Below, piece by piece: positions 2,888 through 42,516 of a stretch of 54,769 nt of DNA. The position numbers were made by a program, and so were the translations under genes. Source of the stretch: a virus. Where the stretch lies: IMG/VR virus record IMGVR_UViG_3300005532_000251, positions 1 through 54,769 of that record. One strand, 5' to 3'. The notes beneath the pieces are model-generated. The model searched no databases and was not told where the DNA came from. It worked only from the letters and a program-made list of their open reading frames with translations. How positions within the stretch are numbered: the first letter of the stretch is position 1; every line of letters starts with the position of its first letter.

Positions 2888-3445
2888 ATGCGAGGAGCGA
2901 CAACGAACACGGCGAAAAGCGGCGGCGAGCCTCTGGCTCCGACGTTTCTCTATGGCTTACTCGAAGTTGGCACGGGCCTATTCTGCTCATTTCAGCAGCT
3001 TATGACGACGCATGACAGCATCGTCGGCATTCTGCAAGGTGGAATCATTGTCCCCTCGCACATGAGCGCGCAGGCTCTGCTCGCGTTCATTCAGAGCAAT
3101 ATGGACAAAGATAATCGTATTGCCTGGACGGTAGCAATCGTCACACAGGTTCTGTATTGGGGCGCGATGCTGCACGCCGGGCCATTCCAGCGAAGGCTCC
3201 TACACCGGCTGACGATCTGGGGATTCTTCGGCCTGGAGATTGTCACCGACCTCTGGTATAGCATCGCAACGAACACGACGCTCGGCGGCGCGTTCGTATG
3301 GATCTTTAATTTTGGTAACGGCGGCTGGCTGGTCAGCCTCTGCTATATCGCAGCGATGAGTGCCGGATCGATCTTCCTGGTATGGCGCGGCCTCTCGCGG
3401 CTCGGCAAGTGTGCAAGTGTGGTCTTTGCGAGCGAAAACCACTAA
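2888..3445 (+). CDS. Polytopic membrane protein (185 aa)
   Basis: A clear GGAGGTG ribosome site precedes ATG 2888. Three to four hydrophobic segments are visible: around residues 15-35 and 45-65 (weaker), 75-98 (WTVAIVTQVLYWGAMLHAG), 108-128, and 135-165. It lies 13 bp upstream of a membrane-anchored ATPase gene. A membrane partner for that DNA-translocase-like protein is a reasonable inference; no named family is recognised. Confidence 0.7.
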   Translation: MRGATTNTAKSGGEPLAPTFLYGLLEVGTGLFCSFQQLMTTHDSIVGILQGGIIVPSHMSAQALLAFIQSNMDKDNRIAWTVAIVTQVLYWGAMLHAGPFQRRLLHRLTIWGFFGLEIVTDLWYSIATNTTLGGAFVWIFNFGNGGWLVSLCYIAAMSAGSIFLVWRGLSRLGKCASVVFASENH

Positions 3446-3458
3446 GGAGGGATACGAG

Positions 3459-4970
3459 ATGGGCGATGAGCACGAAGAGGACAATGATGGCTTTGTCCCT
3501 CTCTCCACGGGAACCGAGGCGGGCATCGCAGCGTTCTTCGTGGGCGCGCCGTTTCTGGGCATGGCTTCGGCCATGCTCGGACTCGGCGAGGCTGGTATCC
3601 TGGCCGGCGTTATCGGCGGCGGGGCGCTCGCAATCGCCGCAAAGGTCGCGGTTGATGGCAATGCAGGAAAGAATCCTCACGTTACCCTGCCTGGGCTTAC
3701 ACAGCTACGCTCAGCCAACTGGCGCGCGCTGTTCGTGCCTACCGATATCGATGACCAGGTGCAGACCTTGACAACGAACGAAGCGTCGAGTCTTTCTCAC
3801 AATGAAAGCGAAGAATACATGGATCTTGGCAGCACCTTGCGTCCGCATGCCAACGCGATCTTCTCTGGCCGCAAGGCGCTCTTTGGTGCTTCGGATGCCG
3901 GCAAGTCGAATGCTGTCGCCGTGATCTGTGAGGAGATCGCGAAGTTCGGCGCGCCGCTCTTCCTGCTCGATACCGAGGATGAATACCGCGCGCTCTGCGA
4001 TAAGCGGTACTTTCCGCGCCCGGTGTGGGTGGAGAGTGCTCGCATCGCGCCATCGCAGGCATACGACTTTGCGCAGTGGGCGATGAATAAGCGCGCCCAG
4101 GTCGTCGTTAACCTGCAAAGCTACGAGGATGACGAGGCGGCCTGGCTGATGATCGATCTTATCAAGGGTATCCGAGCATGGGAGGAATCGCATGATCGCA
4201 TCCCATGCGAGGTCATCTTAGACGAGGCGACGGTGTGGCTGCCGCAGAATGTCGCTGAGAGCACCCTTGCACGCATCATGGTCGCTGATCCAGAGGCAGG
4301 CGAGGAAGGCAAGCAGATCTCATTGCTGGCGCTCTTACAGCGGGCCTTCTTTTCAGTCGTCGTGCGCAGAGGACGCAAGCGCGGCATGGGCTTTACCTTC
4401 GCTGCGCAGCGCATCGCTGAGATCGACAAGCGCGCGCTGCAAGCATCCTGGCTGATCCTGATGAAGCAGGCACAGCCGGCGGATTTCCGCATCTACAAGG
4501 AATTTGGCATCGAGGGAGACGCAGCGCTCTCTCTTGCCAAAGGCGAGGCGTTCGTCCAGGCCCCAGGCAAAACAATGGAACGACATCAATTCCGGCTGCG
4601 TCGCTCCCCGCATGGCGCCCACGCGCCGGGATTGGCGGAGCTGCGCAAGGCCGTTTCCGCGAGCGTTTCCCAACCTGGAAACAGCGGAAACGACGGAAAC
4701 ACCAATGGAAACAGCGCGGAAACGCCTCTACAGGCCAATGCAGCCAAGATCATTACGGATGTGTTTCCTGTTTCCCAGGATGGAAACGACGACCATTCGA
4801 GCGCAGGCAATGGCCTCCCTGTTTCCCCGGAAACGCGGAAACACATCGCCGCGATGCGCGAGGCAGGATACCCAGATCGGGACATTGCGCAGCTCGTTGG
4901 CTTATCCGGGCGCAAGTATGCGCTCTATCGGCAAGTCGTGGCATCGCTTGGCTCTACCCGCGAAGCATAG
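3459..4970 (+). CDS. Membrane-anchored HerA/FtsK-like ATPase with C-terminal HTH
   Basis: The 503-residue start at 3459 follows AAGGAGG. Two hydrophobic segments (about residues 20-42 and 46-64) would anchor it. The P-loop GASDAGKS is at 143-150, a second motif LFLLDTEDEY near 167-176, the Walker B EVILDEA at 251-257, and the sensor/arginine region RRGRKRGMGFTFAAQR at 303-318. That order fits HerA/VirD4/FtsK-class DNA-pumping ATPases. A Gly/Asn-rich linker (about 400-460) precedes a helix-turn-helix-like region (about 462-495, AGYPDRDIAQLVGLS). The linker DNA holds an unusual cluster of hexamers listed separately. A role in DNA translocation during transfer or segregation is inferred; family membership is reasonably firm. 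Confidence 0.75.
   Translation: MGDEHEEDNDGFVPLSTGTEAGIAAFFVGAPFLGMASAMLGLGEAGILAGVIGGGALAIAAKVAVDGNAGKNPHVTLPGLTQLRSANWRALFVPTDIDDQVQTLTTNEASSLSHNESEEYMDLGSTLRPHANAIFSGRKALFGASDAGKSNAVAVICEEIAKFGAPLFLLDTEDEYRALCDKRYFPRPVWVESARIAPSQAYDFAQWAMNKRAQVVVNLQSYEDDEAAWLMIDLIKGIRAWEESHDRIPCEVILDEATVWLPQNVAESTLARIMVADPEAGEEGKQISLLALLQRAFFSVVVRRGRKRGMGFTFAAQRIAEIDKRALQASWLILMKQAQPADFRIYKEFGIEGDAALSLAKGEAFVQAPGKTMERHQFRLRRSPHGAHAPGLAELRKAVSASVSQPGNSGNDGNTNGNSAETPLQANAAKIITDVFPVSQDGNDDHSSAGNGLPVSPETRKHIAAMREAGYPDRDIAQLVGLSGRKYALYRQVVASLGSTREA
4653..4842. repeat. Cluster of 13 GTTTCC/GGAAAC hexamers
   Basis: GTTTCC starts at 4653, 4665, 4763, 4770 and 4821. Its complement GGAAAC starts at 4677, 4686, 4695, 4707, 4718, 4782, 4829 and 4837. 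Several pair as inverted repeats with 2-6 bp spacers (4665/4677, 4770/4782, 4821/4829). The hexamer appears in all three codon phases, encoding GN, AET/PET, RKH, VS or VFP, so peptide selection does not explain it. It is probably a protein-binding DNA site. Confidence 0.8.
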
Positions 4971-5093: not shown

Positions 5094-6182
5094 ATGAACA
5101 TGAGATGGTATGGCTATGGGCATGACTTTGGCAACTCGGAGATCGGCGGCGTCACCGTCTGCGATGGCAAGATGCTCTCCGCATCTATTCCGACTGCCAT
5201 CGCAAAGATCGATACGGCAGCCATGCGCAATCTCGGCATCGACATCGCGGCAAGAGATGCACACATCATAGGGTTCGCCGATGAGGAGAGCACCTGGGCC
5301 GTCGGCGATCTCGCTTTACAACAGACGAGCGCCGCCTGGCATGGACGTGGCGATATCCAGAGATATGCGAGCAAGCAGAGCCTGCGCGGCTTGCTCACGG
5401 TGGCGTCCTCGCTCATCCCTGATCGCGAGTTCGGTCTCTACGTCGTCACCGGGCTGCCAGCGGAGATCTACATGAAAAACGATGCGTTGCGCAAAGACAT
5501 CAAGGCAGCCCTGGAAGGTCGGCATGTCTTCACGACTGACGGCGGCTCTACATGGCGCATTGCCCACGTTGAGGTTGCAAAAGTTGTCATGGAGGGCGCC
5601 GGGGCACTCATCGCCTACGGTAGCCAGCAAGAGCAGAATAGGTACGCTGCTGTCATCGATGTTGGAGGCCGCACAACGGATCTCTATGTGGCCCGTGCAG
5701 GCGTGCCGCAGGCTGAGTTCTGCCGTGGCAAACCGCTGGGAGTTGCCACGGCTGCTGAGGCGATCAAGGCTGCCTTCGAGGAGAAGCACGAGTATCCGCT
5801 GACGGACCTGGAGGCCCGCGACATTCTTCATGCCTATGTCAGTCATGGGAGCAAGAGCTACCCGGAGATTACCGCGTATGGCAAGGAAATCAATCCGCTT
5901 GCCATCGAAAAGGTTGTAAAGCAAGCCGTTACCGATGTTGGCGCCGAGATCGTCTCGTTCACAGCCAGCTCCTGGCGGCAAAGCGAGCGCGGCGCTGTCG
6001 CGGTGAGCTTTAAGCCAGTGCTCTGCATCGGCGGCGGGACCTTCTACTTCTATTCGTCGCTCAAAGAGCGCATACCGCATATCTCGCGTGTCAGTAATCC
6101 GGTGCATGCCAATGCTATCGGGTATTGCACACTCGCAGCGCAGCTCTATAACCGTCGTCCAACGCAGAGCGCAGCATCGTAA
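5094..6182 (+). CDS. parM: ParM-like actin-family segregation ATPase (362 aa)
   Basis: The start follows AAGGAGGAACACA. The actin-fold signatures are in order: phosphate-1 loop DFGNSEIG (11-18), phosphate-2 loop DVGGRTTD (189-196), and adenosine motif CIGGGTFYF (311-319), ending in NPVHANAIGY (335-344), typical of ParM/StbA proteins. Such proteins polymerise into filaments that push plasmid copies apart after binding an adaptor on a centromere. Upstream inverted repeats and a small downstream gene complete the expected three-part cassette. Alp-type actin homologues of phages that position DNA are the alternative; the fold assignment is firm. Confidence 0.85.
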   Translation: MNMRWYGYGHDFGNSEIGGVTVCDGKMLSASIPTAIAKIDTAAMRNLGIDIAARDAHIIGFADEESTWAVGDLALQQTSAAWHGRGDIQRYASKQSLRGLLTVASSLIPDREFGLYVVTGLPAEIYMKNDALRKDIKAALEGRHVFTTDGGSTWRIAHVEVAKVVMEGAGALIAYGSQQEQNRYAAVIDVGGRTTDLYVARAGVPQAEFCRGKPLGVATAAEAIKAAFEEKHEYPLTDLEARDILHAYVSHGSKSYPEITAYGKEINPLAIEKVVKQAVTDVGAEIVSFTASSWRQSERGAVAVSFKPVLCIGGGTFYFYSSLKERIPHISRVSNPVHANAIGYCTLAAQLYNRRPTQSAAS

Positions 6183-6196
6183 TCATGGAGATCGTC

Positions 6197-6490
6197 ATGC
6201 CGAAAGATCGTGAAAAGTTTCAGTACTATGAGGTCGGAATCCTGCGCGATTCCGACCTGCACCGAGATATCCTTGCCGATGCTGAGGCATCGCAGATGCC
6301 GGGGCATATTCCGTTGCTGCTCGCCGCTCGGCTCTCTGAGTACTATGCATTGCGTCGAGCTGGCGCGATCCCTGCTCTGTCAGCCACGGCCTCAAAACAA
6401 GGAGAGCATATCGAAGAGAGCGATGTCGTCACAGAGGCACCGCCAGGCGTGGCTGCGCAGTCAGCCCTCGGCTATGAGTGGCCGGATTAA
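6197..6490 (+). CDS. Candidate ParR-like adaptor (97 aa)
   Basis: The ATG at 6197 is preferred over that at 6185 because GGAG lies six bases before it. A predicted beta strand (FQYYEVGIL, about 7-15) followed by two helices (DLHRDILADAEAS and LLLAARLSEYYALRR, about 18-54) resembles a ribbon-helix-helix layout, followed by an acidic disordered tail. ParR adaptors are small RHH proteins encoded directly after parM that bind the centromere and filament end. Position is the main argument; sequence similarity alone would not prove it. Confidence 0.55.
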   Translation: MPKDREKFQYYEVGILRDSDLHRDILADAEASQMPGHIPLLLAARLSEYYALRRAGAIPALSATASKQGEHIEESDVVTEAPPGVAAQSALGYEWPD

Positions 6491-6509
6491 TCGAAGATTG
6501 GAGGGAATT

Positions 6510-6815
6510 ATGCCAATACAAACAATGACTTACGAAGCCCCGCTCGGCTCGCCGACGTACTGGCAGCGCAATGACTGGCCTGACGAGCTGCGCCGGGCCA
6601 TGAACGCATTTCTTCACCGACACGCGATGACTGCCGCGCAGATCGCGCTCGTCCGGGCGTATTTGCAGTATTACGTCGAGGCGCCGTGCTGGATCGTCGA
6701 GGACAAAGAAGAGCAGTGGCAGCGACTGCGTGAACGCGCAAAGACCGCCAGGAGCGCCGTCGAACTGCGCGATATCATCAATATATGCAAGGCGCTCGAC
6801 ATCGATCCGCTGTAA
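6510..6815 (+). CDS. Hypothetical helical protein (101 aa)
   Basis: A strong GGAGGGAAT site lies before ATG 6510. The protein is almost entirely helical, with an aromatic cluster YLQYYVEAPCW around residues 51-61 and a C-terminal ELRDIINICKALDIDPL. No catalytic or metal motif is seen. It sits 19 bp after the ParR-like gene and may be cotranscribed. Confidence 0.65.
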   Translation: MPIQTMTYEAPLGSPTYWQRNDWPDELRRAMNAFLHRHAMTAAQIALVRAYLQYYVEAPCWIVEDKEEQWQRLRERAKTARSAVELRDIINICKALDIDPL

Positions 6816-6831
6816 TGCGCGAGGAGGAATA

Positions 6832-7359
6832 ATGGATATTCAAGCATTGACGCAGCACGCCAAAGAATTTTTACTCCAGGACAGGGAACTCGCGCCGGTA
6901 CTCTTTGCCGAGCTTTCCGGCAAGGAGATCACACTGCATTTCTTTGCAACCTTCCCGAATAGCTTGCGTGCGCAGCGAGCAGCGATGTTCGAGCTTGGGC
7001 GCTCGCATGGCAAAAGGCATAAAAACGCAGAGATTACGCAACTCTGTCTTATTCAGGAAGTCTGGGGACAGACCTCAGCCTGCGGCGCGCCGATCCCGCC
7101 ATACAAACCATCGGAAGATCCGGCGCGCAAGGAATATCTGCTCGTTCATGTGCTCAATGTAGGGCCGGGCCAGCAGTATGAGTATCAGGGCCGTTTCATC
7201 GAAATCCTGAGAGCCGGTGGGAGCATTGATCTTGCGCCGGAGAGCGAGCCTTACGAGGCCAAAGAAGGATTGCTGGACTATTTCCTCGCTGGCTTTAGGA
7301 GCCGCGATCTCTCAGAGAAGAAGCTGAGAAAGCTGTTGAAAGCAGCGGTTTCACGATGA
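6832..7359 (+). CDS. Hypothetical protein (175 aa)
   Basis: The start at 6832 follows GAGGAGGAAT. The sequence is soluble and mixed alpha/beta, with a beta-rich centre (EITHLFFATF-like stretch near residues 30-40, EYLLVHVLNVGPG near 98-110) and a basic helical C-terminus (SRDLSEKKLRKLLKAAV). No recognised family. The preceding gene ends 16 bp upstream. Confidence 0.6.
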   Translation: MDIQALTQHAKEFLLQDRELAPVLFAELSGKEITLHFFATFPNSLRAQRAAMFELGRSHGKRHKNAEITQLCLIQEVWGQTSACGAPIPPYKPSEDPARKEYLLVHVLNVGPGQQYEYQGRFIEILRAGGSIDLAPESEPYEAKEGLLDYFLAGFRSRDLSEKKLRKLLKAAVSR

Positions 7360-9439: not shown

Positions 9440-10804
9440 ATGGAACGGGCACAGTTATCAGCAGCACGGCACAAAAAGCACTGGTCTCTCGACGAGGCAG
9501 CCGCAGAGATCGGCATTGACCGCTCAACGCTCCTGCGTTGGGAGAAAGGGAGGACATCACCTCAGCCGATGCATATTCGCAAGCTCTGCGAGGTCTATGG
9601 GAAATCTGCGCATGAATTGGACCTGGAGGACGAACCCCCTCCGGTGCATCATATCCAGGGCGATATCGGAGACAATGAGGTCATCGCCGAATTCTCGCGC
9701 CAAGATCTTACCATGCGTCTCCTACAGATTGCCTGGAATTGGTCTGCACGCACTGCCCGATATCAAGACCTCCAGCGACTGATCGTCCTGGAGGTGGAGG
9801 GTAGCGATATGTCTGATGACCTCATCAGCCGGCGCGATGCACTGCGACGCCTGGCGCTGTTCCCCGTCGAGTTTTGTAGTCTTTCGGCGCTTATCCCTGT
9901 ACTCTCACGTCCCACCGAGGAGATCCTGACCTCCTGCGCAGCAGGCATTACTGCCTGCTGGGAATTGCGCAAGGGTCACGATCTCGCCTTTGCAGGCGAA
10001 GTCATTGAGAGATATCTGCCTACCTTGCAAGCTCTCTCTCAGCAAGGATCAAGCCACAACAGAACCGAGGCGGCGCATTTGCTCACCCAGGCGCTGCTCC
10101 TCAAGTCTATCCTGGCCCGGCATCTTGCTGGCTCGGCGCAGGCACTGCATTACGCAAAGCAAGCAGCCATGATCGCGCATCAGGCACATGACTCAGTATT
10201 GGAGATCGTCGTTGCCAGGAATGTCGCAACGGTCTACGATTCAATGCAGGATGTGCGGCCCTGGCGCGATGCGGCAGAGCGCACCGTGATGCTTGTCACA
10301 AACGCCTCGCACGTCCCTCCGGCCATTGCCAGCACCGCATATATCGGCCTGGCGAATGCCCTGTCCTATACGGGAGAGAAGCAAGATGCGCTCTCAGCGC
10401 TCAAAAAAGCAAAGGCGCTCTTTTTTGCCCAGGACCCCGGCGCGACACTTCCGATCTTCGCTGACTATGGCTGGGCAAATGTCCTTCTCAATGAAGGACA
10501 TGTCTACTACCATCTCGGCGATCCTGCGCCTTCCATTGCCGCCCTCGATCAATTACAGGAAGAGCGTGCCGCCAACGCCACCTGGAAAGCACAAGCCTAT
10601 ACCGAGCAGACCCTGGCCGAACTGATGCATCCTTCGCGTGATATGGAGTATGCCATTGATCGCTGGATAAAAGGAGCGCAGATCGCGCGCCAACTTTCCA
10701 GTCAGCAGCGTCGCCGTGAGAGTCTTTCGGCGCTCGTTGCTATGCAGTCTGCCTGGCCGGGTGAACGACGCATAGCTGAGCTTCGCGAGCACATCGTGCG
10801 CTGA
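9440..10804 (+). CDS. XRE-family regulator with TPR-like C-terminal region (454 aa)
   Basis: ATG 9440 is chosen for its GGAGGG site. Residues 5-60 form an XRE/Cro helix-turn-helix (WSLDEAAAEIGIDRSTLLRWEKGRTSPQP). The remaining ~390 residues are helical, with paired-helix repeats (QALHYAKQAAMIAHQA, KQDALSALKKAKALFF, APSIAALDQLQEERA) typical of TPR sensor domains. Proteins of this length and plan are numerous in Ktedonobacteria. It has its own promoter and is closed by a palindromic terminator, so it is an autonomous regulatory unit and a candidate lysogeny repressor or quorum-type regulator; the ligand is unknown. Confidence 0.85.
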   Translation: MERAQLSAARHKKHWSLDEAAAEIGIDRSTLLRWEKGRTSPQPMHIRKLCEVYGKSAHELDLEDEPPPVHHIQGDIGDNEVIAEFSRQDLTMRLLQIAWNWSARTARYQDLQRLIVLEVEGSDMSDDLISRRDALRRLALFPVEFCSLSALIPVLSRPTEEILTSCAAGITACWELRKGHDLAFAGEVIERYLPTLQALSQQGSSHNRTEAAHLLTQALLLKSILARHLAGSAQALHYAKQAAMIAHQAHDSVLEIVVARNVATVYDSMQDVRPWRDAAERTVMLVTNASHVPPAIASTAYIGLANALSYTGEKQDALSALKKAKALFFAQDPGATLPIFADYGWANVLLNEGHVYYHLGDPAPSIAALDQLQEERAANATWKAQAYTEQTLAELMHPSRDMEYAIDRWIKGAQIARQLSSQQRRRESLSALVAMQSAWPGERRIAELREHIVR

Positions 10805-19908: not shown

Positions 19909-19977
19909 TCGCCGACTCCCTTGTAATCTTTGTGGTTATATTATCACATCCTTTTTAACAGCACCGGAGGACGCCGC

Positions 19978-21021
19978 ATGCCAGGCCCGCTCATCGTCCC
20001 CGTCACCACTATTTCAAAGATCAGGCCGCACAGTAACGCCGATTCCCTCGAAATCGCTGAGGTCTTGGGATGGCAGTGTGTCGTGCAGAAGGATCGCTAT
20101 AACGTCGGCGACAAAGTGGTCTATTTCCCTCCTGATACGATGCTCCCCAAAGACAAGAGCGACTCCTGGGGTATCACGCAGTATCTCGATAAGCAGCGTA
20201 TCAAAGCGACGCGACTGCGCGGCGAACCATCGTTCGGCCTGGTCATGCCGTGCGAGGATGAATCATGGCAGATCGGTGAGAACGTCGCCGAGTATTACGG
20301 CGCGACGAAGTGGGAGCCACCGACACGCGAGGCCGCCTGGGCGAAGGCGATGCGAGGGCAGGGAAAGTTCGTCGCCAACCCTGATGCACTCCCTGGTAAT
20401 CCGCTCTTCCCTGAGTACACGCACATTCAGAACCTGCGCCACTTCCCTGATCTCTTCGGCGCCGACGAGCTGGTCGTCGTCACTGAGAAGCTGCACGGCA
20501 CCAATTCGCGGATCGGCATCATCAACGGCGAATGGATGGCAGGATCGCACCGGGTGCGCCGTGGCGAAGGTGACGCGCTCTACTGGTCGCCACGAAAACA
20601 GCGAGGTGTCGAGGCGCTGCTTACAGCGCTAGCTTCGTATCACCGCCAGGTCGTGCTCTACGGCGAAATTCTGGGCAGTGATGTGCAGAGCTTAGATTAC
20701 GGCTATGCGGGCCACGCTGGCTACAGAGCATTCGATCTCATGATCGATGGCCGCTATGTCGAGTTCGATGTCTTCCGCATGCTCTGTGTGCGCTACGATG
20801 TTGCGATGGTGCCGATGCTCTCCTATGGCTATCCCTTCAACCTCGATGAGATCCGCATGGAGGCCAGCGGCAAAACGGCACTCGGCTCGAATCATCTTCG
20901 CGAAGGCGTCGTGGTGAAGCCGCTCATTGAGCGCACGGATCCACGCATTGGGCGCGCCATTGCCAAGTACGTCAGCGATGATTTTCTGCTCGCGAAGCAC
21001 AGCGATTTTGCGGAGGTGTGA
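19978..21021 (+). CDS. RNA ligase, DRB0094 (Rnl5-like) family (347 aa)
   Basis: CGGAGG precedes ATG 19978. The N-terminal ~105 residues fit an OB-fold domain (TISKIRPHSNADSLEIAEVLGWQCVVQK, GDKVVYFPPDT, RLRGEPSFGLVMP). The nucleotidyltransferase domain follows: motif I VTEKLHGTNSRIG with adenylated Lys171, motif III-like LYGEILG, motif IV REGVVVKPL and motif V AIAKYVSDDF. This N-OB plus ligase order is that of Deinococcus DRB0094. Such ligases seal nicked RNA with a 3'-OH/5'-P. In a phage this suggests repair of tRNA or other RNA cut by host defence nucleases. Confidence 0.88.
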   Translation: MPGPLIVPVTTISKIRPHSNADSLEIAEVLGWQCVVQKDRYNVGDKVVYFPPDTMLPKDKSDSWGITQYLDKQRIKATRLRGEPSFGLVMPCEDESWQIGENVAEYYGATKWEPPTREAAWAKAMRGQGKFVANPDALPGNPLFPEYTHIQNLRHFPDLFGADELVVVTEKLHGTNSRIGIINGEWMAGSHRVRRGEGDALYWSPRKQRGVEALLTALASYHRQVVLYGEILGSDVQSLDYGYAGHAGYRAFDLMIDGRYVEFDVFRMLCVRYDVAMVPMLSYGYPFNLDEIRMEASGKTALGSNHLREGVVVKPLIERTDPRIGRAIAKYVSDDFLLAKHSDFAEV

Positions 21022-36964: not shown

Positions 36965-37381
36965 ATGAAAGCAGAGTACCCTATGCCCCGACGCAGAACC
37001 TTCGCCCCCAAAGAAATCCACGCCGACTGGTGGGACAGCCATGAAGTCGTCATTATCCGGCCCCTCAGAGAAGAAGACAACGAAGTCATTCAGGATAATC
37101 TCAGCGAAATGATCGCAGGAGACGCGAAGAACGCCTCGATGGCCTTGAAGCTCGGCACCTCACGTCGGCTGACGATGCTCAGAGCAATACAGTCCTGGAC
37201 ACTCACTGATGAGCATGGCCGCGCGCTGCCACTCAATGAGCAGTCAATCAAGGATCTCGCGCCAGAGGACGCTGACTACATTTACAGCGAAATCAACGCC
37301 CTCAATGCGCCGATGAGTGAGGCCGAAAAAAAAGCCTCTTCGATGACTGCTACGCCTGGTTCGCCGGCAAGTCCCGCATAG
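36965..37381 (+). CDS. Tail assembly chaperone, short form (gpG-like, 138 aa)
   Basis: Gene order (tube, this gene, tape measure) and a compact helical protein with an acidic Ala-rich end (APMSEAEKKASSMTA) fit the lambda gpG role of chaperoning the tape measure. The start may be 36965 or ATG 36983 (MPRRRTFAPKE). An A8 run at 37326-37333 near the 3' end gives a plausible slippage site. The zero frame ends at 37381; the -1 frame stays open to 37554. Confidence 0.75.
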   Translation: MKAEYPMPRRRTFAPKEIHADWWDSHEVVIIRPLREEDNEVIQDNLSEMIAGDAKNASMALKLGTSRRLTMLRAIQSWTLTDEHGRALPLNEQSIKDLAPEDADYIYSEINALNAPMSEAEKKASSMTATPGSPASPA

Positions 37382-37566: not shown

Positions 37567-37597
37567 AAAAATGCCCCGGCTTGTATTGCCGGGGCAT
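37567..37597 (-). terminator. Terminator of the antisense cassette
   Basis: Leftward, ATGCCCCGGC pairs perfectly with GCCGGGGCAT (37571-37580 with 37588-37597), followed by TTTTTGTGTG. It closes the three-gene antisense operon. Confidence 0.88.
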
Positions 37598-37608
37598 GGA
37601 TGGCGGAG

Positions 37609-37953
37609 CTATGCGCCGAGGCGGATGATTTTTTCCATATGCTTCATCTCACCACCGCCAGGGCGATTTGTGAGATGAGCATAGCCGCCATAGAAGTCAA
37701 TGAACTGCCTCTCAAGCCTATAGATCATCGATGGATCTCGTTGCGCATCGTCATGAATTGGAATAATAGTCACGATAGGCTCGCCGCCTTGCGCCCAGAT
37801 ATTACGGATGACCCTGTACCGCTCCTGCTGGCTGTGATTGCCCCTGGCGGCATAAAGATGAGAACGGATGCGACCAAGATATCCACAGCCAGAACCTTTG
37901 CCAACATAGAACACGTTGCCATTAGGATCTGCAATGGTGTAAACATAGCTCAT
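37609..37953 (-). CDS. GIY-YIG family nuclease (114 aa)
   Basis: AAGGAGATC precedes the leftward ATG at 37953. The GIY-YIG module is complete in outline: YVY (3-5), FYVGKG (15-20), Arg at 28 or 30 (LGRIRSH), Glu81 (LERQFID) and a later Asn96 (LTNRPGG). There is no extra DNA-binding domain except a short basic tail. The single-domain form occurs in homing endonucleases and in small mobile-element nucleases. It overlaps the preceding cassette gene by 4 bp, so it is coexpressed with the Cas8c-like protein. Confidence 0.85.
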   Translation of the reverse strand: MSYVYTIADPNGNVFYVGKGSGCGYLGRIRSHLYAARGNHSQQERYRVIRNIWAQGGEPIVTIIPIHDDAQRDPSMIYRLERQFIDFYGGYAHLTNRPGGGEMKHMEKIIRLGA

Positions 37954-38372
37954 GATGAGATCTCCTTTGCCCGCTCTCTGCGCAGTAATTCGCGGACAAA
38001 TTTTGATCCTCCTCGCTTGAGTACCCACTCTTTGAGCGATGGCTCAAGGCGTATAAGCAGTTGAGCAGTAAATTGTGTCTCTTCTAGCATCGCCACCTTT
38101 GAAAGAGACTTCGCTTTTTCCTGATAGTAGCCCAGTGGAAAATCCGCCTGGTCGGATGGTGACAAGGGCTGCCCATCAAAGGCATCCATCGGCAGCGTAT
38201 TCATCACGTCGATGATGGTATCAGCTTTCCCCATCTCGGCGAGGCGAGGCAAGGCAGGAACAATGATCTGCGTTGGACTCATGCTGGCAACCTGGTAATC
38301 CTGCGTATGCACTGCACCCTCGCGTTCGAGCTGAGCAAAAAGCTTGCCCAGCAAGTATCCTTTACTTGGCAT
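37950..38372 (-). CDS. Cas8c/Csd1 C-terminal (Cas11c)-like protein with RHH tail (140 aa)
   Basis: GGGAGGCGG precedes the leftward ATG at 38372. Residues 5-87 (YLLGKLFAQLEREG, ASMSPTQIIVPALPRLAEMGK, PLSPSDQADFPLGYYQEKA) follow the conserved pattern at the end of type I-C Cas8c/Csd1, which ends in Leu-(S/T)-x-x-x-Q-x-x-F-x-(L/I)-GYY and is also made separately as the Cas11c small subunit. Residues 101-133 (FTAQLLIRLEPSLKEWVLKR, GGSKFVRELLRRE) look like a ribbon-helix-helix DNA-binding module. No other cas gene or CRISPR array is in the window. The match is from recalled family patterns; function could be a decoy of Cascade, or a distinct DNA-binding role. Confidence 0.6.
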   Translation of the reverse strand: MPSKGYLLGKLFAQLEREGAVHTQDYQVASMSPTQIIVPALPRLAEMGKADTIIDVMNTLPMDAFDGQPLSPSDQADFPLGYYQEKAKSLSKVAMLEETQFTAQLLIRLEPSLKEWVLKRGGSKFVRELLRRERAKEISS

Positions 38373-38775
38373 ACGCCGCCTCCCATTCCTCTGCGAAGAT
38401 TCTGATACCCTCGCTACGATGATCGATCCAGAAACGAGCATCGCTACGACGGTTGATGATCGCCATGAATGTAGTCCTCGCCCGCACTGCCTCCTCCGGG
38501 CTTCCTTGTGCCTGCGCAAAGCGGCGCTCGAACTCATTCACAAATTCCTGGCGAATGGTCGCGGCCCAGGCGATTTGCTTCTCTGAGCCAATCAACGCGG
38601 CCAGCCCCAACTCTGCTGCCTGTGCGCTGGCTCGTGCCACCTGCTCACTGCGTTTGCATGCAGAACAAGGCTCTCTTTGTAGCCAGGTGATCTTACGCTC
38701 TCGCTCAGCCTCTTTGCCATAAAGTTCAACCTGCTCACTATGGCTGCAACTGTGAATTACCATGTATTTTGCCAT
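38362..38775 (-). CDS. Zinc-binding accessory protein heading the antisense cassette (137 aa)
   Basis: AAGGAGATG precedes the leftward ATG at 38775. An N-terminal C-x-H pair (HSCSHSEQVELYG, Cys10/His12) and CSAC (Cys37/Cys40) make a likely zinc site. A recognisable block LGLAALIGSEKQIAWAATIR (56-75) and a helical C-terminus follow. Proteins of this plan (Cys-His start, GSEKQ-x-AWA block) are recalled as common in phages and plasmids, with unknown function. It overlaps the Cas8c-like gene by 11 bp. Transcription is from the consensus promoter at 38818. Confidence 0.7.
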   Translation of the reverse strand: MAKYMVIHSCSHSEQVELYGKEAERERKITWLQREPCSACKRSEQVARASAQAAELGLAALIGSEKQIAWAATIRQEFVNEFERRFAQAQGSPEEAVRARTTFMAIINRRSDARFWIDHRSEGIRIFAEEWEAAYAK

Positions 38776-38817
38776 TGCCTTACATCTCCTTGTTTGTAGT
38801 AACGTTTGTATATACAT

Positions 38818-38846
38818 ATTGTATATCAATGGCGCTTACTTGTCAA
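38818..38846 (-). promoter_or_regulatory. Consensus leftward promoter TTGACA-17-TACAAT
   Basis: TTGACA (38841-38846) and TACAAT (38818-38823) read leftward with 17 bp between them, about 40 bp before the first cassette ATG. It lies antisense to the tape-measure leader. Confidence 0.88.
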
Positions 38847-38889: not shown

Positions 38890-41800
38890 ATGTCTGATCT
38901 CGCGCTGAACATCCTCATCAACGCTCAAGATTCGGCGAGCGCGATCCTGCGCAATGTCGGCACCGCGATCTCCGATCTCGGTTCTGGCAACGTGCTCGGC
39001 GCTGTCGCGGCTGTCGGTACGGCTGTCGTTGGCATTGGCGTCGGTGCGGTCAAAGCTGCCGGCGATTTCCAGGCTTCGATGACAAAACTTGTCACCAGCG
39101 CTGGCGAGAACAGCAACAATCTCCAGCTCATCAGCAATGGCATCAAGCAGATCGCCGTCGATACTGGAACTTCCACCGATCAGCTCGCGGCGGGCATGTA
39201 CTACGTGGAGAGCAGCGGCATCCATGCAGCCTCCGCACTCGCGACGCTTCGTGTGGCGGCGGAGGGCGCAAAATCAGAGAACGCCGACCTTACCACCGTC
39301 AGCAAGGCGCTCACGACGGTGCTCACCGACTATCACATGGATACCTCGAATGCCGCCGCAGCGACCCTGTCCTCAACGCAGGCGATGAACGGCCTCATCG
39401 CCACCGTCCAGAACGGCAAAACGAGCTTGCAGGAGCTGTCGTCAAGCATGGGCGCGGTGCTGCCGATTGCGTCATCCCTGGGCATCTCGTTTCCGCAAGT
39501 GGCCGGCGCGATGGATACCATGACCAATGCCGGCATGACCTCGCGACAGGCAGCGATGAATTTAGCCCATGTGCTCCTCGCGCTTTCATCGCCCTCTGGA
39601 GTTGCTGTCAAATCGATGGATGCGGTGGGCTTATCTGCGCAGCAGGTGAAGGACGCCCTCGTCCATCAAGGGCTGCCGGAGGCGCTGCAAATGATCGAGG
39701 ACGCCGTGGGGAAGAAGTTCCCGGCTGGATCGGTCCAGTATGAAACAGCGCTCAAGAACATTACCGGCGGTATCATGGGCTTCAAGCTCGCGGCCCAACT
39801 CACCGGCGACAGCCTCAAGCAAACCGAGGCAAACATTGAGAAGGTCACAGCGGCGATGGCTGGCGCGAAGAACGGCGTGCTCGGGTGGGATCTTGTTCAG
39901 CAAAATTTCAACTTCCAACTAGACCGGGCAAAGCAGGCGCTCCAGGTCCTCCTCATCAACATCGGTCAGCAATTACTTCCCGGACTCACAAAGATTGCCG
40001 CAGCGATCACGCCGGTCATTGTCGGCTTTGCCAACTGGGTATCGCAGAGCAATATCATTGGCAACGCGCTTTCCGCCGTCGGCACCGTCCTGCAATGGCT
40101 CTTTGGCCTGTTTCAGCAGGCATGGAGTGTTTTGCAACAAGTCGGCGCGGCCATTGCCCCGATCTTCGACAACTTAGCTTCCCAGGCGCAGACGTGGGGC
40201 CAGAACGTCATGGCGGGCTTCATCGCCGGCATCGAATCCCTCATCGGCGATCTTGAAAGCATCATGAACCAGGTCGCGCAGAGCATCGCTGATTTCATCG
40301 GTTTTGCTAGCCCGTCGAAGCGTGGCCCTGGGCGCAATTTGATGTCCTGGGGCCCGGCGATGGTCAAGGGCTTTGCTGATGGGATCCGTGCGGGCGCGGA
40401 CCGCGATATGGACGACGCGATCAGCCACGTCACGAAGCATTTCGGCAAGCTCCATGACAAAGATGATGCAAAGCGGCGAGGCAGGCGGCGAGCCGAGCAG
40501 GACCGCGATGCAGAAGTGCAGGCTGCGCAGACGAGCAGTGCCAGCAATGGCCCCAACTCAAACGGCGTGCTCGCTACCGTTTCGCTCGCCTCGTCTGGCG
40601 CCGGATCTGCGCACTCAAGGCTTACCAGCGCGCTGCATAGCAACACCTCGGCCTTAGCGCAGGCACGGCTTGCGCTCTCGGAGCAGAAACTGGCCCTCGA
40701 TCAGCACAAATTCGCCTTCACGAAAAGCCTCGATCAGCAGAAGCTCGCACTGGATCGCACGAAGGTCGCCTTGCAAGAGCATAAACTGGCCCTGGACCAG
40801 AACAAGCTCGCACTCACAAAGAGCGTCGATGCACAGAAGCTGGCATTGCAGGAGCAGAAGCTCCACCTGGAAGCGCTGAAAGCGAACACCAAAGCGCTCT
40901 CCTCGCGTGCCAAAGGCGGCGGCGCAGGCGGAGCGCTCGGCACTGCGAGCAATGCCGCAAAGCAGCTCTCGCAGATCAAAGTGCCTGATATTGGCAAGCA
41001 GATCAGCGATTCTGTGAAGCATGGCGTGGACCAGGCGAAGCAGCGCCTGACAGAGATGGTTTCGCCGATCACCAAAGATGTGAGCGTGGCTCTGAGTCGC
41101 CTTGCGCCGGCCTGGAAGAGCATCAAGGATGGCGCGATCTCCGTGTGGCAGGTTGTGCAGAGCGAGCTTATCCCATCGCTGAAACAGGTATGGCAGGCGC
41201 TCTCCCCTGCCTTCACTATGTTCAAGGAGCTTGCCGGGGATGCGCTGAAAGTGGGGCAAGCCATCGGGACCTGGCTGACAAAGGGCGGCGGCCTGGCTGC
41301 GATGTGGCAGGGCTTTATTGGCGTCGTGAAGATCGTCATTGCTGTCCTCTCGACGGTCTTCACCATCATCGGAAAGACGCTCGCGCCAGTGTTCCGCCAG
41401 CTTGCTCAGACGGTGCAGACACAGATTATGCCGGCGTTCAAGCAACTCTGGCAGGCGATACAACCTCTGCTTCCCACGCTCAGAGATATGGCTATCGTGC
41501 TCGGCGGGATTCTGCTTGCAGCGCTGGGGATTCTCCTCGGCGTCATCGGCGGCGTGCTACGCGGCCTGGCTGGCTTTATCTCTGGTATGATCCAGGCAGT
41601 CGGCGGCGTGATTCAGATTTTCTCTGGCCTTATCACGTTTTTCATCGGCTTTTTCCAGTTCATCATTGACCTTTTCAGCGGCAACTGGAGCAAGCTAGGT
41701 GACGATCTCAAAACGATGTGGAGTGGTATGGTCCTTATCGTGGAGGGCGCATGGAACACGATAGAGGGCATCATCAATGCCGGCATCGGGCTGGTCAAGG

Positions 41801-42516
41801 GCCTCATCTGGGGCTTCATCTCGACGATCATCACCTACTTCCAAAACCTCTACAATGCGCTCGTCGGACACTCCATCATCCCTGACCTCGTGAACGGCAT
41901 TCTGCAATGGTTTACAACGCTTATCACCGCCGGGCCACAGACGCTCCAAAAGCTGGTCGATTGGATGACCACGACTTTCAACAATCTTCTGAGTGACGCG
42001 ACGAACTGGGGCCGCAATCTCATTGGCAATATCATTAATGGCATCAATTCAATGCTGGGCAATGTTGCGCAGGCAGCCTCGAATGTCGCGCAGACCATCG
42101 CCAACTATCTCCACTGGGCTTCGCCAACGAAGAAAGGTCCTGGCGCCTCCTCTGATAAATGGGGCGGCAACCTTGTGAAGACCATCGCGCACAGCATGAC
42201 CGAGCACATCAGCTACATCAACGCCGCAGCAGGACAGATCGCCGCCGCTGCGAACCCCTGGGCCAGCCAGGCCAGCATTGTCAATGGCATCGAACTCCCT
42301 GATTACGCGACGGGAACTGGCTACTTCTCGATGAACACCCCGTATGCGCAGCCATCGCAGTCGGTCACCGTCGGCGCGATCCATGTCCACTTGAATACCT
42401 CAGATCGCGATGCTGAGCAGCACGGCAAAAAAGTCGCTGAGGTCGCAAAGCGCGAGCTAGCGAAGATGCTGCGCCAGCAGTCGATAGCGCCGCGCTACAC
42501 GTCGGGAGGGCACTGA
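38890..42516 (+). CDS. Tail tape measure protein (1208 aa)
   Basis: Length, Ala/Gly/hydrophobic segments and the typical N-terminal module (ALNILINAQDSASAILRNVG, then GDFQASMTKLVTSAGE, DTGTSTDQLAAGMYYVESSG) identify it. At 0.15 nm per residue it predicts a tail of about 180 nm. Residues about 590-675 are an unusual run of heptads (QKLALDR, KLALDQN, QKLALQE) forming a long coiled coil. Membrane-like stretches lie around 850-960. Two copies of the SPxKxGPG motif (SPSKRGPGRN near 477, SPTKKGPGAS near 1079) suggest a repeated terminal module. No strong ribosome site precedes it. Confidence 0.92.
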   Translation: MSDLALNILINAQDSASAILRNVGTAISDLGSGNVLGAVAAVGTAVVGIGVGAVKAAGDFQASMTKLVTSAGENSNNLQLISNGIKQIAVDTGTSTDQLAAGMYYVESSGIHAASALATLRVAAEGAKSENADLTTVSKALTTVLTDYHMDTSNAAAATLSSTQAMNGLIATVQNGKTSLQELSSSMGAVLPIASSLGISFPQVAGAMDTMTNAGMTSRQAAMNLAHVLLALSSPSGVAVKSMDAVGLSAQQVKDALVHQGLPEALQMIEDAVGKKFPAGSVQYETALKNITGGIMGFKLAAQLTGDSLKQTEANIEKVTAAMAGAKNGVLGWDLVQQNFNFQLDRAKQALQVLLINIGQQLLPGLTKIAAAITPVIVGFANWVSQSNIIGNALSAVGTVLQWLFGLFQQAWSVLQQVGAAIAPIFDNLASQAQTWGQNVMAGFIAGIESLIGDLESIMNQVAQSIADFIGFASPSKRGPGRNLMSWGPAMVKGFADGIRAGADRDMDDAISHVTKHFGKLHDKDDAKRRGRRRAEQDRDAEVQAAQTSSASNGPNSNGVLATVSLASSGAGSAHSRLTSALHSNTSALAQARLALSEQKLALDQHKFAFTKSLDQQKLALDRTKVALQEHKLALDQNKLALTKSVDAQKLALQEQKLHLEALKANTKALSSRAKGGGAGGALGTASNAAKQLSQIKVPDIGKQISDSVKHGVDQAKQRLTEMVSPITKDVSVALSRLAPAWKSIKDGAISVWQVVQSELIPSLKQVWQALSPAFTMFKELAGDALKVGQAIGTWLTKGGGLAAMWQGFIGVVKIVIAVLSTVFTIIGKTLAPVFRQLAQTVQTQIMPAFKQLWQAIQPLLPTLRDMAIVLGGILLAALGILLGVIGGVLRGLAGFISGMIQAVGGVIQIFSGLITFFIGFFQFIIDLFSGNWSKLGDDLKTMWSGMVLIVEGAWNTIEGIINAGIGLVKGLIWGFISTIITYFQNLYNALVGHSIIPDLVNGILQWFTTLITAGPQTLQKLVDWMTTTFNNLLSDATNWGRNLIGNIINGINSMLGNVAQAASNVAQTIANYLHWASPTKKGPGASSDKWGGNLVKTIAHSMTEHISYINAAAGQIAAAANPWASQASIVNGIELPDYATGTGYFSMNTPYAQPSQSVTVGAIHVHLNTSDRDAEQHGKKVAEVAKRELAKMLRQQSIAPRYTSGGH

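Follow-up and report, generated by a model that had tools for sequence, protein, structure and literature searches.

Why should a phage carry, among its tail genes, a free-standing relative of one subunit of the type I-C CRISPR effector complex, Cascade? The question is raised by the IMG/VR virus record IMGVR_UViG_3300005532_000251, whose 54,769 bases were analysed and are referred to hereafter as the window. Positions 37567-38846 of the window hold what we call the cassette, an operon of three genes on the minus strand that is served by a promoter and a terminator of its own. Gene 1 (P0001; 38362..38775, minus; 137 amino acids) encodes a zinc protein, gene 2 (P0002; 37950..38372, minus; 140 amino acids) encodes a protein that is Cas8c-C/Cas11c-like with a ribbon-helix-helix (RHH)-like part, and gene 3 (P0003; 37609..37953, minus; 114 amino acids) encodes a protein of the GIY-YIG nuclease family. 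An earlier note on this DNA had offered three roles for the cassette: an anti-CRISPR decoy, a self-regulated nuclease system aimed at rival phages, or a homing cassette. The cassette is real and not an artefact. We favour, with moderate confidence, a self-regulated anti-CRISPR operon in which an AcrIF23/AcrIE7-like protein is paired with a Cas11c decoy, the whole riding in the tail module as a moron.

Gene 2 encodes a stand-alone homologue of Cas11c

Library hidden Markov models (HMMs) matched P0002 weakly, short of the cut-offs for acceptance (Pfam Cas_Csd1, E 0.032; NCBIfam, E 0.0085; PADLOC, E 0.0023). The full-length Cas8c/Csd1 model (TIGR01863) was failed outright, at 14.7 bits against 218.65, by a protein of 140 amino acids compared with 588 model positions. 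As these matches were insufficient alone, the case for homology was built independently. Cas8c C-termini ranked first for P0002 among plasmids in a tblastn search, and alignment showed motifs common to both (GYxLGxLFA, AS..P and DQxxFxLGYY). Comparison with four Cas8c C-termini by hhalign gave an E-value of 3.6e-10. An HMM made only from Cas8c scored P0002 at 24.8 bits and 11 of 12 family members above 15 bits, compared with a peak of 8.0 bits for shuffled decoys of family members (n = 2400). A profile made without any Cas8c matched the Cas11c chains in the PDB (E 2.6e-7 to 4e-7), and profiles made only from solo proteins matched full-length Cas8c in genomes of Chloroflexota, Actinomycetota and Bacillota, with E-values down to 5e-13. 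Scans of viral and genome contigs with P0002 as a single protein found no relatives, which were reached by alignments alone, and a phmmer search of the PDB with P0002 was likewise empty.

An AlphaFold (AF2) model of P0002, built from seven solo sequences without Cas8c, contained a confident helical domain at residues 1-90 (predicted local distance difference test, pLDDT, at least 88 in every block to residue 90). The first six Foldseek matches to this model were all type I-C Cascade entries, as was every one of the ten VIA-align rows listed (Z 9.3-10.6), the best of which was the Cas11c chain 9jhc_A (Z 10.6, root mean square deviation 2.1, 87 residues). The Cas11c-like five-helix domain lies at residues 3-90 (38103..38366, minus). 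P0002 aligned with residues 495-611 of Desulfovibrio vulgaris Cas8c, and the small subunit of that organism corresponds to Cas8c residues 489-612 (PMC7684278); therefore the phage gene starts where Cas11c starts. Residues 3-90 of P0002 are thus truly homologous to the C-terminal domain of type I-C Cas8c (Cas11c), here in stand-alone form. The likeness that the earlier note had claimed for residues 5-87 was borne out over residues 3-90 by the Cas8c-only HMM and hhalign scores, and a fold match accompanied the profile match.

P0002 shares with Cas11c and the Cas8c C-terminus the five-helix fold, the motifs GYxLGRLFA and FxLGYYHQ, and the start of the internally translated small subunit, but it is a stand-alone phage gene without cas neighbours and has an added, predicted DNA-binding domain. 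In Cascade, translation of Cas11c begins at an internal start of the cas8c gene in a cas operon; P0002 has its own gene and the window contains no cas8c. A simple repeat scan of the window found no CRISPR array and Pfam found no other cas gene among its main open reading frames (ORFs), in agreement with the earlier note.

Compared with 26 Cas8c C-termini, the solo proteins retained the core of both the first helix and the last. They lacked the conserved NxTIxDRY loop and the HHxxK element, and two of their inter-helix segments were shorter. Solo domains and Cas11c differed slightly in charge, which is not used as evidence. In Cascade the non-target strand normally runs along Cas11c (PMC7684278). 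A decoy would be expected to look like this, a subunit still able to pack but without the conserved elements.

A predicted DNA-binding half and operator-like palindromes

The C-terminal part of P0002 (about residues 103-137; 37962..38066, minus) is a predicted RHH-like DNA-binding domain, recognised from the family alignment. The RHH fusion described in the earlier note stands as RHH-like by alignment: the Pfam RHH_1 model (PF01402) was above its cut-off in family member L029 (23.8 versus 20.5 bits), to which the other members align with the pattern strand-helix-GG-helix, but Pfam found no RHH match in P0002 itself. The P0002 model has helices at 111-120 and 123-139, both of low confidence.

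The cassette is preceded by a sigma-70-type promoter, TTGACA-17-TACAAT (38818..38846, minus), which agrees with the consensus at 11 of 12 positions and was the top of 8 candidate sites in 9 kb. A predicted operator, TATACAATATGTATATACA (38807..38825, minus), overlaps and follows the -10 element. Its core palindrome, TGTATATACA (38807-38816, minus), lies at or straight after the -10 and has matching palindromes at related promoters. The exact pattern TGTAYRTACA occurred once in the window (0.01 expected). A TAyrTA palindrome was present at or next to the -10 in seven of the eight RHH-branch promoters, the Thermosporothrix copy being the exception. The promoter of phage L013 contained TGTACGTACA twice, that of phage L014 contained TGTACGTACA and TGTACGTACT, those of G324, G331 and G268 contained TACGTACA-type sites and that of G261 contained a match to TATACGTATA. 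Because TGTAyrTACA-type palindromes are conserved at or next to the -10, there is good evidence, from sequence, that the operon is autoregulated through the RHH half of P0002, as the word 'self-regulated' in the earlier note implied. A search of Ktedonobacteria for a regulon of paired GTACGTAC sites matched two genomes, no more than the reversed control.

P0002 resembles the Aca proteins in being a predicted DNA-binding protein encoded in an operon with promoter palindromes. It differs in that reported Acas have a helix-turn-helix (HTH), whereas P0002 is RHH-like, has no HTH and has a Cas-derived domain; HTH_3 was found only in three sister-branch proteins (L111, L124 and L131).

Gene 1 resembles AcrIF23 and AcrIE7

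P0001 is a member of PHROG 16123, for which PHROG gives the function as unknown, and it has relatives in at least 173 viral loci. In an alignment of 39 members of this zinc family, C10, H12, C37 and C40 were invariant and a GSxKQxAWAxxIR...SAxxWIDxR domain was kept, in keeping with the description of P0001 as a Cys/His zinc protein. The AF2 model of P0001 had a pLDDT of 94. Fold and profile matches point to an AcrIF23/AcrIE7-like helical domain at residues 58-137 (38365..38604, minus). Foldseek ranked AcrIF23 first, and VIA-align placed AcrIE7 (9kjb; Z 5.7, 66 residues, 32% identity) in its first row and AcrIF23 (7fia; Z 5.2) in its third, modest values for matches that span 64-66 residues. 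When the zinc-family profile was run against 177,635 PDB sequences, AcrIF23 (E 2.5e-4) and AcrIE7 (E 0.006-0.012) were the sole matches up to E 10.

AcrIE7 is reported to bind the single strand that the R-loop displaces and to block degradation in type I-E and I-C systems (PMC13131331), and AcrIF23 inhibits Cas2/3 (PMC13381967). P0001 is similar to AcrIE7 in profile and fold over P0001 residues 61-137, but has an extra N-terminal zinc-binding part, and the two share about 30% identity at a modest Z.

The gene pair recurs in a sister branch of phages

At 4 of 79 zinc-protein loci (L111, L124, L131 and L159), the gene directly downstream encoded a Cas8c-C-like domain joined to a different DNA-binding domain. 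With L190, the zinc gene and the Cas8c-C/DNA-binding gene were paired at five loci, of which L124 and L190 are near copies. An independent scan by the HTH-type domain alone also yielded five loci, with the zinc gene immediately upstream in four of them (two being near copies); L188 is an HTH-type Cas8c-C locus without it in that position. In this sister branch the Cas8c-C-like domain is joined to an XRE-HTH in place of the RHH. HTH_3 was detected in the fusion proteins of L111, L124 and L131 (E 1e-14 to 1e-11), and L111 was above the Pfam cut-offs for both Cas_Csd1 and HTH_3. The DNA-binding domains have been swapped, RHH versus HTH_3, with both above Pfam cut-offs in members. Apparently the small subunit of a type I-C system was captured, and two or more DNA-binding domains that are unrelated to each other were joined to it. 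At L159 (3473-3994) the Cas8c-C-like domain is joined to a weak YdaS-like region, possibly a third type of DNA-binding partner.

Within the RHH branch the zinc gene was present only in the window. An alignment-led scan found solo relatives, C-terminal extension included, in phages L013, L014 and L015; the zinc gene was not beside the gene 2 homologue in these three phages found through gene 2, nor in the bacterial copies. The conserved zinc neighbour and co-inherited pair suggested in the earlier note therefore hold for four or five sister-branch phages but not for phage relatives of the L013/L014/L015 type or for bacterial copies. The first gene of the putatively palindrome-controlled operon encodes a protein with a weak DUF5710 match in L013 (5707-5982) and a 74-amino-acid protein without a Pfam match in L014 (5776-6000); by position, both products are candidate new anti-CRISPRs. 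In L013, 3 bases past the Cas8c-C/RHH gene, an ORF at 6430-6891 encodes a transposase-type zinc ribbon (PF14690, above the cut-off), with no transposase body in the part read.

Scans of whole genomes with the solo-only profiles found solo proteins in 5 of 47 Ktedonobacteria, and among about 1200 genomes of Chloroflexota, Actinomycetota and Bacillota the solo RHH forms were confined to that class. In one Ktedonobacterium (G331; L050, about 9919-10400) the chromosomal Cas8c-C/RHH gene is split by a frameshift within the RHH, and its close relative in G324 is intact. Three further candidates were rejected. Two short Cas8c-like ORFs of Actinomycetota (L072 and L080) proved to be truncated or interrupted Cas8c beside cas7. 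The third, MT836291.1 (L004), the sole tblastn match for P0002 in the phage collection, is a bacterial-type I-C locus and not a phage relative. Filed among phages, it carries a cas8c-cas7-cas4 run of type I-C and looks bacterial.

Comparison with known systems

A 2024 review called the rarity of viral Cas recruitment as CRISPR inhibitors an enigma (PMC11656645), and a few cases, such as AcrIB3 and AcrIB4, have now been described (PMC13131331). AcrIB4, a 9.1-kDa stand-alone homologue of the Cas8b C-terminus, is described there as impairing type I-B immunity. Both AcrIB4 (by that description) and AcrIB3 resemble P0002 in being small viral proteins homologous to a Cas8 C-terminal domain. AcrIB4 is Cas8b-like with a type I-B target, whereas P0002 is Cas8c-like, is fused to a predicted DNA-binding domain and lies in an operon with a second candidate.

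In a Pseudomonas prophage, acrIF23 adjoins acrIF24, a dual anti-CRISPR/HTH gene (PMC7648647). There, as in the cassette, an AcrIF23-type gene is followed by one for a protein with a C-terminal DNA-binding autorepressor domain, which in the cassette is a prediction. The cassette family differs in having a Cas11c-like and not an AcrIF24-like half, an RHH or XRE domain, and a zinc module on gene 1. The general kind, a Cas-derived anti-CRISPR plus an autorepressor, is already known, and the combination is different from acrIF23-acrIF24 and from AcrIB4. A Cas-derived domain combined with an autorepressor and an AcrIF23/AcrIE7-like partner was not found described in the literature searched.

A probable self-regulated anti-CRISPR operon and its alternatives

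The anti-CRISPR option of the earlier note drew strong independent support from the zinc family, which matched AcrIF23 and AcrIE7 alone in the PDB, and from the recurrence of the pair in other phages, but the inhibition itself we infer. Under this reading, gene 1 would probably intervene at a late stage of interference, with the displaced DNA strand or Cas3 as its target. The product of gene 2 would take up, or contend for, a place in the belly of type I-C Cascade; being a faulty subunit, it would impair the holding of the R-loop or the action of Cas3. The RHH half of P0002 would bind the TGTAyrTACA palindromes next to the -10 and repress the operon, as the conserved sites suggest, and gene 3 would supply an accessory GIY-YIG nuclease. 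The operon would then be self-limiting and directed, presumably, against type I-C. If this is true, the fusion gene, the operator and the zinc gene are markers by which phages of Chloroflexota and of other little-studied hosts can be searched for new anti-CRISPRs, and with this family the idea of a Cascade decoy can be put directly to the test in type I-C.

Several observations weigh against such an operon. As a single sequence, P0001 reached AcrIF23 only at E 0.92; its structural Z values of 5-6 are modest, and the stretch of AcrIF23 that was matched (53-95) does not take in E25 and T26, which are essential there. Members of the zinc family are widespread, and their role may be a more general one. 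Full Cas8c was present in just two of the five Ktedonobacteria with chromosomal or prophage solo copies, and since type I-C/Cas8c occurs in 5-6 of 47 genomes of the class, co-occurrence of the solo gene with Cas8c is not significant. Three of the bacterial copies are single genes outside an obvious phage context.

It is unlikely, though well worth weighing, that P0002 functions chiefly as an autorepressor of the Aca type. Its Cas11c-like half would then serve for dimerisation or as a sensor, for instance of single-stranded DNA or components of Cascade, and the anti-CRISPRs would be gene 1 and the variable neighbours. Of all features of the RHH branch, the operator-like palindromes vary least, the neighbours do vary (the zinc protein in the window, the DUF5710-like protein in L013 and the 74-amino-acid protein in L014), and the DNA-binding domain, swapped as it is, was never seen absent in the members examined. 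However, it is the N-terminal half that was kept across branches while the DNA-binding half was replaced. To our knowledge, known Aca proteins are without Cas domains, which also counts against this explanation.

We regard as distinctly doubtful a new class of dual decoy-regulators, in which binding of the Cas11c half to host Cascade or to R-loop DNA frees the swappable RHH or XRE half from its operator and thereby induces the operon only upon an encounter with CRISPR immunity. Quite improbable, in our judgement, is a family no longer linked to CRISPR, in which a nucleic-acid-binding bundle resembling Cas11 came to serve phage or host as a general regulator. The loss of conserved Cas11c loops and the single-gene chromosomal copies in Ktedonobacteria, with three of the five genomes lacking Cas8c, would suit such a regulator, but the partner zinc family matched anti-CRISPRs only and the pair recurs in unrelated phages. 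A solitary type I-C-like repeat, considered as an RNA anti-CRISPR, was sought as GTGGATTGAAAC with up to 2 mismatches and none was found; Rfam gave chance-level matches only.

Gene 3 and the place of the cassette in the tail module

P0003 was assigned to GIY-YIG just above the cut-off (PF22945, 27.3 bits against 27), confirming the earlier assignment; PF01541 fell just below its own (22.1 versus 22.6 bits), and the PADLOC model PD-T4-3 matched at E 8.6e-10. A homing unit or inter-phage weapon with this nuclease as the active part and the other genes as its regulators is very improbable, for although gene 3 overlaps the 3' end of gene 2 and resembles PD-T4-3, and although related phages have an empty site, tblastn saw no GIY-YIG gene beside the other Cas8c-C/RHH genes (seven loci), the other two genes pair without the nuclease, and nothing past the presence of the gene speaks for the rival-phage or homing roles once proposed.

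The architecture described in the earlier note, three overlapping antisense genes with a promoter and terminator of their own, was found in place. The ORFs overlap by 11 bases (genes 1 and 2) and 4 bases (genes 2 and 3), and a purine-rich ribosome-binding site was seen by eye before each of the three. An intrinsic terminator, a GC-rich hairpin with a T tract (37567..37597, minus), closes the cassette; the hairpin (37597-37571) has 10 pairs, a folding energy of -24.4 kcal/mol and z = -4.0.

The cassette opposes the tail operon in orientation and lies between a tail assembly chaperone-like gene on the left (36965..37381, plus) and the tape measure protein gene on the right (38890..42516, plus; PF10145, E 9.4e-30). 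Ten viral contigs encode a major tail protein related to that of the window (31-39% identity); in these the chaperone-like gene is kept and is followed directly by the tape measure gene, without the cassette. Because these ten phages with related tail genes lack it, the cassette looks, on gene order, like a moron inserted in the tail module. Near the 3' end of the chaperone-like ORF there is a run of eight A residues (37326-37333), and a second, overlapping frame, shifted by -1, runs on to 37554, which fits the programmed frameshift of G/GT tail chaperones.

Elsewhere in the window, the protein encoded at 5094-6182 is actin-like (ALP/MreB-like) and may serve in segregation of the plasmid kind or in positioning of the phage. 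At 19930-21021 and 3360-4970 lie genes for an RNA ligase that contains an OB-fold (PF09414, PF21189) and for an ATPase of the HerA type.
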